Shown one piece after another: positions 33,107 to 39,498 of a stretch of DNA of 64,000 bases. Below the pieces are notes generated by a model. It saw only the letters and a list, made by a program, of their open reading frames with translations. It was not told where the DNA came from and ran no database searches. The DNA lies in assembly GCA_033182465.1 (NCBI GenBank), contig CP137318.1:496001-560000 (forward strand). Direction: 5' to 3'. How positions within the stretch are numbered: position 1 is the stretch's first letter; each line of letters starts with the position of its first letter. A program made the translations under genes and the position numbers. Origin of the DNA: Sanghuangporus weigelae (taxonomy: Eukaryota; Basidiomycota; Agaricomycetes; Hymenochaetales; Hymenochaetaceae).

Positions 33107-34706
33107 ATGGTAAATAATAGCATCGCTATCGGCCTCGACGCATTAGGAGTCATTGACAACGAAGTGAAAACCCTTCATTCGCACGATGGAATTATTACTG
33201 ACGATGAGTTGTGGGGAATTGGATCAGAGAGAGCAAGCCTTCCGTAAGTGATCTTTCTCGCAAGCGCTCCTAATTTCTCATAAATATTGCAGGCAGGCCT
33301 TTGAATCTATGTCGCCCTTGCTCAGAGAAGCGCTAGTAGATATGAAGCAGCTCGAGTCGGTGAAAGTTGCTCTCTACAACCTGGCGCATTCTTGCGAGAG
33401 GAAATTGGAAATAATGAAGAAGGATCTGTGGCCGTGTTTCCTCCAGTGCGGGATTCAAATGTTACCAGACGACGTCCTGGCTCGTATTTTTGAGCTCTGT
33501 GTTGAAGGCAATCAAGATGATCGTGCTGCAACTATGTCGCCCGAGGTTGTTCTGTCGCACGTCTCTACGAGGTTCAGGTCCGTTGCGCTAAGCCTCCCTT
33601 CTTTGTGGTCAAAACTTTCGTCCAAGATGTCCAAGCGCTGCTTGCAGCGCAATCTGAAAAGATCTGGAGTCGTTGCGTTATACGTCACAATAAGCGGGCA
33701 CGCGATGAGCAAACGGCTTGCATTGTTTATCCGTAACGTCAAGCGAGAGTGTTCGAGGTGGAAATCATTCAAATTTCACTTAGACGACGTTAAAGCTATG
33801 GATTCTGGATTTCTCAAGCAATTACGAATATCACTCGGGGACCTCCAACTTCCAAACCTGGAGCTCTTTGAGCTTTCGCACAACTGTAGGTCAGGCAATA
33901 CAGACGCAGTGACGAATATCGATTCCTTCAACATCTACCGCTCGTGGAGCATGCCAAAGACACGACATATCTCGATCTGCGAGAACACTCCGAGTAACCT
34001 GCGAGGACCATTTTCTTTACAGGCAGTCTCATTTCTAAGCCTTAGCTTTCCGGCAGATGGTGGAATCCGCTTGCAGCCCTTGCTTGAAACACTTGCATCG
34101 ATGTCGAACTTAAGTGACCTGCAACTGGAAATATCTTGCTATTGGTACGACATACCAGGAAAGAACATTAGCTTCGTCTTCCCTAGTTTGAAGAGCCTCA
34201 GCTTATTGGTCGGTTTGATAACGGGCCGGTTCTTTATGGACTACGCTCGTATGCCAATTCTGGAACACCTACATCTGGAAACGTCGAAACGACAACAAAC
34301 AAACGTCTATTATCAACCTTATCGTTTGTTACCCGATCTTCCTCGAGCGACGTGCCCGTCTGTCAAAAAGCTAGTCATTGTCTATCGTGGAAGTCGTCCC
34401 GATTATTTGGATTTCTTTTCCATTGTCGACAGGTTCCCAGGAATGGAGATTCTCGTTTTGGATGCACCTTTCAGTAAACTTTCTGTTCACCTCGGAGAGG
34501 TCAGGATGATGCCACCGTTTCGTTTCATTTCTATGCAGGTTGGGGAGCCGGCTTGCATCGATTTCCTTCCTAGATTCGTCGAGGAGATGAAACAGCATGG
34601 AAGGTGGGATGGATTCGAGGCCTTTGATTTTAAGTGTGACAACGTAGCTACGAGGCGGCAGGTAGAATCGGTCCTAACTAAAGAAAGAGTGAGATGGTAT
34701 GAATAA
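33107..34706 (+). CDS. F-box/LRR-like protein, intact paralogue
   Basis: Exons 33107-33243 and 33293-34706; 516 residues. A short coiled segment (LVDMKQLESVKVALYNLAH) precedes an F-box (IQMLPDDVLARIFELCVE...SHVSTRFRSVALSLPSLWSKL, about residues 100-155). Leucine-rich repeats follow to the end (SMSNLSDLQLEI, MPILEHLHLE, PGMEILVLD). The expected role is a substrate receptor of an SCF E3 ubiquitin ligase; the target is unknown. The intron is after the same LP codons as in the interrupted copy at 4629-6341, confirming paralogy. The C-terminal VKxYDR-like end of the paralogue corresponds here to LTKERVRWYE. Confidence 0.85.
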
Positions 34707-35330: not shown

Positions 35331-37533
35331 ATGAGTACGCCAGCTGCACTTCCGCAGCGTCCTTCGAAGCCTCCACCAGCGGGGCCCGCGCCTCCTGCTC
35401 CCGGGGCTGCACCACCGAACCCACCACAACCCAACAGTGGTCACGCTGCCACCACAAATGGTACCAAGGCCACCACGGTTCCCAATGGTACCACCAAGGG
35501 TAAAAAGGGCGCCGCTAAAGCGGATACGCCTGTGGATCCCCAGGCTATGTACGAGAGCTTGAAGAGCAAGATCGCTGCATTGGAAGAAGAGCTGAACCAC
35601 GCGGACGAGGAAGAACTTAAGTTTGGTGCGTTGTTCATTTGTTGTGTCTATGCTTCGTGACAAGAAGCAATATTCTTATTCCCCGTTGCTCTGAATACGC
35701 AGCTGAAGAGGCGCAGAAGAGTGTACGCGGTATGGAGGAAAACGCAGTACACACGAAATACGTAGAGTTGGTACGTGACCTGCTCTACATATGTTGTTCT
35801 TCACGTATTTAGGATTTCCTCTAGTTTGCTGAGATGAAGCGTACGGAAAGAGATCACGCGAAGGAGAAACAGAAGTTGACGAAGGACAAGGATACTGGTA
35901 CTACTTCTTGTCTCGGAGGAAGAAATCCATGAACTCACAAAGTTTTCCTAACGATGACCAGCGAAGAGTCAGTTGACGAAAGCAAACCAAACGAAGGCTA
36001 AGCTGGAGAGTCTCGCCCGAGACCTGACGAAGGTGAGATTATTGTCTATTTATTTGTACTCTTTCGCTGACAAAACGCAAGGATAACAAGAAATTGAGAG
36101 TAAGTGATGTGGATAATATAGGAGGATGAATCTGTACCAAGCGGTCGTGTAGGAAGAGAAACACCAACTCCTGCAAGAGATTTCCAAAGGACTGGAAGAG
36201 GTGAGCACTTTCACTACTTTCTTACGTTCATGTTCTAATGCTACACGATCACTCCGCAGATCAAGCACTTGACGGCAGAAATCTCCAAGGGAAAGGAGAA
36301 AGCTCGTCAGCAGGAGATTAAGAACCGCGAACTACCAGAGATTGTTGTGAAGGTCGTATGCAAGTACCGTGCGGAACTCTTCTTCAAGATTAATCGCAAG
36401 ATGAAGCTTTCTCGCCTTATGGACGCATGGACTGAACGAATGGAAGGTAATACGTCTCCTTCAATGGGCCGCAAAGCCATCGGGAAAGGAAATACTACTG
36501 CTTCCAATGGTGCATCGACGCCGAACGGAGCAGGTAAAGGAAACGATGCGGCAAGCATCAAGTCGAATGCGTCAATCCAATCGGGAGTTGTGGGAGGTGT
36601 CGTCAACGGGACGTCTGCCGGCGCAGCAACACCGGCGCGTATGACGTTCGAATTTTTCCACCAAGGTCGGACTCTGGACCCGGAAGTGACTATCGAGGAG
36701 GCGGGTATTGAGAGTCAGGATGAAATCCTTGCTGTTGAGTTCATGGATTTGACGGGACCGATGCCTGATGATGCGGTGCGTCCTTGACTGTATATTCCAG
36801 CTCATCCGGCTCAATACTTTGTACTTCAGGAGGAGATCATGGACACACGTCTCCCAAAACTGAAGAAGAATTGGACAGATAATCCACAAGAGTAGGTACC
36901 TCCCAGAGTTCAAGTTCTCCGCATACTGATGCAGAAGGTCGAATAGAGCAAAGAAAGCCATGGAAGAGATTTTCGACGGGGTGTAAGTCCCTCTCCTATT
37001 CTGTAAAACATGCATTTATATTTCTACTGCTTTGTACGCAATAGAACGAGAGAGCGTCTGAAACTTGTCCTTCGGCAATACGAGCTTCGCGAACGGCACT
37101 TCGAATGCTTCGTCCGGTCAAAGGAGCTCGAGCTCTTGCTTGCACGCTACCGCGAACAAGAGCACAAGCAGCGTGTGGAGTTCGAGAGGAGTCGAATAGA
37201 TAAGCTTGAGGAAGATGTGAGTGCTCTTGTTGATGTCTTCTCGGAGAAAAGTTAAGCGAGGTTGAAAGAACCAGCGAGTGCGCAAGGAGCTTGAAGATGT
37301 GCATAACGGGCAAACAATGCTCATTGAGAAGTTGATACAATGCTGCAAGGAGGTAAGTTTTCATTGGTCTCGCTTTCCGAGCCACTTGATTCATCTTCTC
37401 TTTTTTTTTTCCTTTGCGGGTCTGCGCTGGGTTGCAGCCAAATGCCGAAAGGACGCAAAGACTCTTCACATCTCTGCGCGAAGAGCTCGAGAAACGTGGG
37501 ACGAAACTGGTGGATGGCGTTGCAGGAGGGTAG
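35331..37533 (+). CDS. Taxilin-like coiled-coil protein with embedded SUMO-like domain
   Basis: Twelve exons: 35331-35625, 35703-35770, 35825-35897, 35962-36032, 36082-36099, 36153-36200, 36260-36775, 36830-36891, 36947-36982, 37045-37216, 37275-37352, 37438-37533; 510 residues. The first 75 residues are Pro/Ala-rich. A coiled coil follows (MYESLKSKIAALEEEL..., KAKLESLARDLTKDNKKLR), the taxilin signature. It runs without an exon break into a ubiquitin/SUMO-like fold at about 217-350: VVKVVCKYRAELFFKINRK, LSRLMDAWTERM, a Ser/Gly/Asn insert of some 60 residues, then MTFEFFHQGRTL and IEEAGIESQDEILAVEFMDL. No C-terminal di-glycine. Coiled coil then resumes (LRQYELRERHFECFVRSKEL, again taxilin-like). 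Taxilins bind syntaxins in vesicle traffic; Rad60-SLD/SUMO-like modules bind SUMO-pathway partners. One exon is only 18 bases. Confidence 0.82.
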
Positions 37534-37897: not shown

Positions 37898-39498
37898 TTA
37901 CACCAAAGCATCGAAATCCTGTAGTTTCTCAACATGTCCCGACTTGCTGAACGTCTTACCCTTGACGCTCTCAAGTCCCTCGCCCGCATACGTCACTAGC
38001 GGGCTGACCTCAATCTCCACTTCATCCGAGGCGAACTTCGCTCCAGCAGCTTCAAGGAACCTCCGTTGCTGAGCAAGGAGGTCGCGGCGGGACGTCTCAG
38101 CCGAGTCGCCCGCAGGAGCCCCAGGCGCGTTTTTCAACGGCGAGAACTCCTCCGCCCGAGCACCCTCAAACACGAAAAAGTTCTGCGAGAATGGAAAGAC
38201 GTCGAACACGAACATCTCCAGTTTCATTCCGTCCGTTTTGCCCTTTTCGCCCTTGCTTGCGCCGTCGAGGGAGGTGATCGAGGGGATCTTCTTACGCGCG
38301 ATGTGGTACGCGAGGGATTTCTCAATCTCGTGCGTGCGTTGGAGGAAGGGGAGCGTATAAACGTGGTTGGCGATGTTTGCTGCGCGGAGGGCTAGAGCGT
38401 TTGGGTTGGAGGGATCACGGCGGGCTGCGAGCTCCGGTGTGATCTCGCTATACTCCACCACAGCGAACTTCCCGCTGCGCTTTGCGACTACCCCGACGCT
38501 CTCCTCGGGACGCTCCTTCGGGACTGTCTTCGCCGCGCAGTCCGCATTGCGCGTGGCACAGGCACCGAGGAAGACGGGGTCGGCGACTTTGACGAGGCAG
38601 TTGTCGACGCAGTACGCGTGGATGAGGGTGATTCCCCGCGAAGAAAGGTCGGAGAGGATGGATGGGGCGGTGAGGTTGTTGAGAGATTGGGTGAGTGGGT
38701 TGCGCAGCGCGGCGTAGAGGCCGCCGTTCCCGTCTGGTGCGACGGCGACTTTTGAGGGAGCTTCGAGGAGGATCTTGCCCGAAGCTGAGAGGCATGGGAG
38801 CACACCTGCGGTAGTAAACATTTTTAGTTTAATAGCTTAGAGAATAATGAACGTAGACCCTGACCCTGCTTGAAGAACACAACCTGGTCCTCATCGAGCC
38901 CGAAATTCACTTCCTTCCGCAACTTCTCACCACCAAGTCCCCACCCAAAGAACTTCCTCGTCGCATCATGCGTAGGGTCGCTTGTCATGACATACCACCT
39001 AATCTTCACGCTTCCTTCTTTCTTGCCCGCCTCCTTCTCCGCTACAGTCTGCAAGCGCTGAATGCGCTCAGCTTGAAGCTGGAAAAGCGATTTGTGGGAA
39101 GGAAGACCGATATCGTAGCAACCTTTCGGGTCTGAACTGCCTAGACGCGTGCCCTGGCCACCAGCCATGAGGAGCACCGCTACTCTCCCCTCAGCGATCT
39201 CGCGTAGTCCCTTCTGGCGATACTCCGCCACGCGCTCCTTCTTCGCGTCTACGATATTTTCAGTCACATCACTTGGAAGGGGTTCAACAGCATCTGGAGA
39301 CGCGTGTTTAGTATCCTCGTCCGCTTTCAACGCCGCTTTGTAGATCTCATTCACTCGCGCTGGATTGAATACAGAGAGCTGATCGAGAAGGGAGGATTGT
39401 TCGCCTCGCGAAAGCGTGTCCCAGAACGAAAATACGTGTCCTTGGTCCGCAGCGATGTAGCGGGCTTTAATGTCTGCGTAACGCGCGTCGGTGGACAT
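37898..39498 (-). CDS. UAP1: UDP-N-acetylglucosamine pyrophosphorylase
   Basis: Exons 38865-39498 and 37898-38805 (59-base intron); 513 residues. Makes UDP-GlcNAc from GlcNAc-1-phosphate and UTP, the donor for chitin, N-glycans and GPI anchors; cytosolic. Seen: the nucleotide-binding loop LLMAGGQGTRLGSSDPKG (about residues 106-123), WYVMTSDPTHDATRKFF, the uridine-binding GNGGLYAAL, a YCVDNCLVKVADPVFLG segment, VVEYSEI, and FVFDVFPFS near the C-terminal domain. Length is standard for eukaryotic UAP1. The ATG at 39498 is the first methionine in frame downstream of the promoter; an upstream in-frame extension without ATG is ignored. It functionally feeds the chitin synthase at 17365-22051. Confidence 0.96.

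Follow-up and report, generated by a model that had tools for sequence, protein, structure and literature searches.

A SUMO-like domain nested in the taxilin coiled coil of Sanghuangporus weigelae and other Agaricomycotina

The window considered here is a stretch of 64,000 nucleotides from the fungus Sanghuangporus weigelae (assembly GCA_033182465.1, contig CP137318.1, positions 496,001 to 560,000 of the forward strand), taken from a genome of 33.9 megabases in 13 contigs. A gene at 35331..37533 of the window (+) encodes a taxilin with a SUMO-like domain nested in its coiled coil, at about position 122 of the Taxilin profile. The nesting, the SUMO fold, a SUMO ancestry for the domain, its conservation in Agaricomycotina and its absence from three outgroup taxilins are all supported by computation. 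As for function, we consider the chances about even that the domain acts as a non-conjugated SUMO mimic on the taxilin rod, which would dock peptides carrying a SUMO-interacting motif (SIM).

Profile searches (Pfam) place both domains on the protein above their curated cut-offs. Taxilin (PF09728) scores 58.5 bits against a cut-off of 30.3, and Rad60-SLD/SUMO-like (PF11976) scores 25.8 bits against 23.8, or 31.8 bits when exon 7 is scanned alone. Each profile matches the whole protein in two stretches, and the Taxilin match there covers profile positions 4-128. Scanned separately, the first coil matches Taxilin positions 7-123 (45.3 bits) and the second matches 121-246 (30.9 bits); the insert therefore lies near position 122, with no profile positions lost. 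This bears out the initial annotation of this DNA, which had placed a ubiquitin/SUMO-like fold inside a taxilin-like coil from the letters alone. An uninterrupted match over the 302 positions of the profile was not found because the SUMO-like domain interrupts it, and positions 247-302 were unmatched. NCBIfam gave no family above cut-off for three of three proteins. When the genome was searched with the Taxilin profile for a second taxilin without the insert, there were two matches, both below the cut-off and both exons of this same gene, though exons were scanned singly and a split or diverged copy could escape. The gene is thus the only taxilin found in the S. weigelae genome. Its predicted protein is divided as follows.

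35331..35537, + strand: N-terminal tail rich in Pro, Ala and Asn, residues 1-69; less conserved, predicted disordered
35538..36340, + strand (introns included): N-terminal taxilin coiled coil, residues 70-218; Taxilin profile 7-123, helices 70-106 and 111-214 in the model
36341..36445, + strand: first half of the SUMO-like domain, residues 219-253, strands 1-2 and helix 1; Rad60-SLD profile 1-34
36446..36640, + strand: low-complexity loop within the SUMO-like domain, residues 254-318; length-variable, predicted disordered
36641..36754, + strand: second half of the SUMO-like domain, residues 319-356, without a di-glycine end; from alignment and predicted structure
36884..37497, + strand (introns included): C-terminal coiled coil of the taxilin with a short final helix, residues 382-504 of 515; Taxilin profile 121-246

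The gene model has 12 exons and 515 residues (512 with the alternative start of exon 9). It runs from an ATG at 35331 to a TAG at 37531-37533, and its 11 introns, all GT-AG and 46-85 bases long, leave a single reading frame. The exons of this in-frame splice model are given here.

Exons 1-6, + strand: 35331-35625, 35703-35770, 35825-35897, 35962-36032, 36082-36099, 36153-36200
Exons 7-12, + strand: 36260-36775, 36830-36891, 36938-36982 (or from 36947), 37045-37216, 37269-37352, 37438-37533

A single open frame (36239-36787) spans exon 7 (phase 0/0, residues 192-363), where the first coil finishes, the SUMO-like domain lies complete and the linker begins. Coil residues 192-216 run into the domain with no splice between, just as they had first been read. 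The coil had also been said to resume four exons later, but RQYELRERHFECF lies in exon 10, three exons on from exon 7. Two of the joins allow a choice. For exon 11, a start at 37269 was preferred to 37275 because it gives more identities and fewer gaps against four of five relatives and fewer gaps against the fifth; the protein then has 515 rather than 513 residues, Taxilin scores 58.5 rather than 53 bits and the second coil reaches profile position 246 rather than 196. The identity to S. baumii given below and several of the family alignments were made with the 513-residue version, and the SUMO-like domain is the same in both. Exon 9 has two in-frame acceptors nine bases apart, at 36938 and 36947, and the frame is kept with either. 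The first is that of the S. baumii protein, the second fits P0002, P0003, P0004 and P0007 better, and the three residues between them are missing from 118 of 121 aligned proteins.

Relatives were collected in three protein searches, in which only the candidates sharing most words were scored. The search with the S. weigelae query gave 274 matches (best 120 listed); a search with a SUMO-less profile, under a length rule favouring shorter proteins, gave 209 (best 120 listed); and a search restricted to lengths from about 528 residues upwards gave 23, all listed. Counts out of 121 refer to the best 120 of the 274 matches plus the query, and counts out of 238 to the different proteins fetched across the searches. 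The closest relative among the matches listed is P0001 from Sanghuangporus baumii (Hymenochaetales), with 96% identity over 100% of the length. Both halves of the SUMO-like domain are present in 121 of 121 proteins, and coil, both SUMO halves and coil follow each other in this order in 211 of the 238, including P0198 (Rhizoctonia), whose SUMO-like domain is gapped. Of the rest, 23 are incomplete, with at least one end segment missing, and four have the coils but no domain, namely the three outgroups and P0186 (Ceratobasidium sp. 370). The exon joins described above are based on splice signals, frame and collinearity with these 211 proteins, which are themselves predictions. One could argue that the annotation has joined two genes or transcripts, and P0186, which is modelled without the domain, would fit this. 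However, coil and domain share one open frame in exon 7, the same order is repeated in the 211 relatives, and both P0185 and P0187, also from Ceratobasidium, have the domain, which makes such an artefact of the gene model scarcely credible. In P0186 itself the sequence passes from IVV to KFVPEDE, and because its congeners keep the domain, the loss is likely, though unproven, to reflect a wrong intron in that model.

The nested design recurs in Agaricomycotina. The named basidiomycete sources that could be recognised are Agaricomycetes and Calocera (Dacrymycetes), the metagenomic entries being nameless, and the sampling does not reach Tremellomycetes, Ustilaginomycotina or Pucciniomycotina. The earlier suggestion that the nesting may be common in basidiomycetes therefore stands for Agaricomycotina. 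Three outgroup taxilins, from Ascomycota, Glomeromycota and Chytridiomycota, have only the coils: P0236 (Entrophospora) and P0238 (Phlyctochytrium) match Taxilin 1-302 in one stretch, and P0237 (Geoglossum) does so in two stretches, of which 1-228 is the best. In an alignment of the outgroups with the SUMO-less form, the conserved blocks REL-K-NK and QY-LRE-H flank the insert site, one on each side. The insertion can be dated no more closely than between Agaricomycotina and these three phyla. Two of the predicted proteins have additional parts. The SUMO-like taxilin of P0226 (Mycena citricolor) is part of a prediction of 919 residues under the name listerin, where gene models may have been joined. 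P0236 (Entrophospora sp. SA101) continues after the taxilin with a WW domain and a peptidyl-prolyl isomerase that by eye resembles Pin1, and this model may be a fusion.

AlphaFold2 models of two relatives contain a complete beta-grasp that matches solved SUMOs, Ubc9-bound ones among them. When the family consensus, with the loop left out, is compared to the SUMO encoded elsewhere in the same genome, 27 of 67 alignment columns are identical (40%), and ubiquitin gives no sequence signal (z of 0.3 for the consensus and 0.7 for the S. weigelae copy). The fold proposed in the initial annotation is therefore upheld, and judged by its sequence the domain is a relative of SUMO rather than of ubiquitin. 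The long low-complexity loop that had been noticed between the helix and the third strand is also there, spanning 65 residues (254-318) in S. weigelae and 25-77 (median 39) across the 121 sequences. The mean top-residue fraction is 0.93 and 0.84 for the SUMO halves, 0.86 and 0.90 for the coils and 0.29 for the loop, meaning that the SUMO halves are conserved about as well as the coils and the loop is not. For the N-terminal tail the fraction is 0.54, and the block means of the predicted local distance difference test (pLDDT) are 38-53. The C-terminal helices are at 379-480 and 484-501 in the P0001 model, with S. weigelae numbering shifted by 3. Chance was ruled out as an explanation of the arrangement by the two profiles above their curated cut-offs, the two predicted structures and the 211 collinear relatives out of 238.

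For the docking surfaces, positions of SUMO and ubiquitin were mapped by alignment, and residues were counted in 207 family members. A ubiquitin-type domain could recruit taxilin or its cargo to the proteasome, or else to UBA domains such as that in the alpha subunit of the nascent polypeptide-associated complex (NAC). This is improbable given the lack of ubiquitin signal and the state of the Ile44 patch, where the equivalent residue is Thr or Ser in 119 of 121 and 203 of 207 proteins; the S. weigelae copy is an exception with Phe.

The end of the domain bears on whether it could be conjugated. The initial annotation had seen no di-glycine end, and this is so: the S. weigelae copy has none and its chain continues into the coil, no family member (0 of 207) has GG immediately after DLT, and the commonest end is ELMDLTEGPG (42 of 121). 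The idea of a hidden SUMO precursor, in which a protease cut after the domain frees a conjugable modifier, could draw on the 17 of 207 members with GG one to three residues past DLT (14 with one residue between) and on the database name of P0045, 'Small ubiquitin-related modifier 1'. However, the N-terminal coil would remain attached after such a cut and SUMO itself is encoded by another gene of this genome, with a last exon readable as VGG-YL, so this idea has very little chance of being right. That SUMO gene (L012) is on contig C3 at about 2783158-2783430 (-), and its end, joined by eye, is VGG followed by two residues. A further gene on contig C9 at about 1159443-1159631 (+), L007, has a SUMO-like domain near its end and is Rad60-like by eye.

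The SIM-cleft residues of SUMO can be recognised in the family, as far as alignment can tell: Phe233, Arg237 and Arg251 are each found in 207 of 207 members, position 235 is Ile or Val in all 207, and Leu244 is found in 205. Rad60, Esc2 and NIP45 (PF11976) offer the closest parallel for a SUMO-like domain that is fixed in a larger protein and not conjugated. The cleft of Rad60 SLD2 is described as obscured in one study, where four SUMO positions were mutated to Pro, Phe, Arg and Glu in imitation (PMC2946365). In our family the prevailing residues at the four sites are Ser, Thr, Ala and Arg; Pro stands at the first site in 3 of 207 members, and the remaining three changes are absent (0 of 207). 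If the taxilin domain worked like SLD2, it would hold the SUMO E2 Ubc9 on taxilin and promote attachment of SUMO to taxilin partners. The Rad60-SLD profile match and the Ubc9-bound structures among the SUMO folds matched are in line with this, and so is Asp345, kept in 121 of 121 proteins, which in our alignment corresponds to SUMO1 Asp86, close to the E2 face. However, the taxilin domain is single and internal whereas theirs are in tandem at the C-terminus, and the equivalent of Smt3 Asp68, the acid that contacts Ubc9, is acidic in 0 of 207 members, most commonly being Asn (103) or Gly (37). Mutation of Smt3 Asp68 disrupts the E2 contact (PMC8636563). This makes an SLD2-like role unlikely. 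Because the cleft is near-invariant, the SLD2-type obscuring changes are nearly absent, and both the Asp68 acid and the Ile44 patch are lost, the residue pattern favours an open SIM-type docking cleft over binding of an E2 or a UBA domain.

The SUMO-mimic reading would then be as follows. A SUMO-derived domain would have been built into the taxilin coiled coil in a basidiomycete ancestor and retained since, as a fixed, non-conjugated mimic on the rod. The SIM of a partner would sit in its open cleft, formed between strand 2 and helix 1, the coils would hold the usual taxilin partners, either syntaxin/SNX4-type membrane proteins or NAC, and the two sets of partners would be brought together without SUMO conjugation. 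Vesicle traffic and docking would in this way meet in one protein, as the initial annotation had suggested. Animal taxilins bind syntaxins, SNX4 and NAC according to three reports (PMC3972091, PMC4650556, PMC3427180). A plant taxilin-like protein was among ribosome-linked proteins in a cross-linking study (PMC12330729), and a trypanosome taxilin-domain protein is described as located in the cytoplasm and as probably binding other partners (PMC7272336). These partner data are non-fungal, so a link between SIM docking and the membrane or nascent-chain sites can only be inferred.

Several points weigh against the SUMO mimic. The SUMO-like domain has no known binding partner, the coil partners are taken from non-fungal taxilins, the end of the Taxilin profile is unmatched, and Asp345 is retained. 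The equivalent of K53 of S. pombe SUMO, one of four cleft positions, is Ser in 184 of 207 members, and the S. weigelae copy is off consensus at 236, 239 and 246, so the affinity for SIMs may be weak. Additionally, Cys225, Tyr227, Arg228 and Trp248 are invariant and outside the cleft; SIM binding does not explain them, and they could pack on the coil or form some other contact. Such packing is what would be expected if the domain were mainly structural, capping or kinking the coiled coil or setting its register or oligomeric state while docking nothing itself. The helix at 111-214 stops only four residues ahead of strand 1 in the model, and this, with the missing partner, makes a structural role a possibility that deserves some weight, though we think it doubtful, since a near-invariant SIM cleft would be needless in a pure spacer. 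The models are neutral here, because their predicted template modelling scores (pTM, 0.31 and 0.36) give no confidence to the orientation of the domains, and packing is neither supported nor excluded.

Compared to known systems, the protein resembles the taxilin family (PF09728; alpha- and gamma-taxilin) in matching its profile on both sides of the insert and in a QYELRE-HF block common to P0236 and P0237 and in part to P0238, and it departs from the family in the nested domain and the unmatched profile end. With SUMO (Smt3/Pmt3) the domain shares the beta-grasp fold, the 40% consensus identity and a largely retained SIM cleft, whereas it is internal, has no conserved di-glycine, carries the long loop between helix 1 and strand 3 and has lost the E2 contact acid, a loss that also separates it from the Rad60/Esc2/NIP45 group. 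The initial annotation knew of no described protein with this nesting. No paper describing the combination of taxilin and a SUMO-like domain was found by title or abstract start, a Penicillium paper that mentions taxilin (PMC6678512) being among those judged in this way, with subscription journals and most preprints outside the coverage. Most of the matches listed are nevertheless already annotated with both Pfam domains in databases, and many of these are named 'Ubiquitin-like domain-containing protein'.

The convergent neighbour of the gene, at 37898-38836 (-), is a portion of an enzyme of the UTP--glucose-1-phosphate uridylyltransferase type (UDPGP, 57.8 bits), by eye a UDP-N-acetylglucosamine pyrophosphorylase. 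A single prediction from Phellinidium pouzarii (P0235) combines a SUMO-like domain, a taxilin coil and UDPGP; this suggests that both genes are adjacent in that species too and were perhaps wrongly joined. Upstream, an open frame at 33252-34706 (+) of 484 codons has no Pfam match at 0.01, and its LPDDVLARIFELC is F-box-like by eye.

The central function of taxilins, a widespread group of coiled-coil proteins, is not settled, and a partner of the SUMO-like domain, which this lineage conserves highly in what seems to be its only taxilin, would point to the taxilin pathway. The placement is also of interest, since the putative SUMO mimic is fixed midway along a rod and not at one end of the protein. 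Tentatively, and with less confidence than for the mimic itself, a copy of SUMO in the single taxilin of an ancestor of the mushroom lineage may have become a permanent, conjugation-free SIM receptor, which would wire SIM-bearing proteins to the membrane or nascent-chain sites of taxilin across mushroom-forming fungi with no SUMO cycle. If this is true, it would hint that SUMO-type docking has been recruited to taxilin sites in these fungi.
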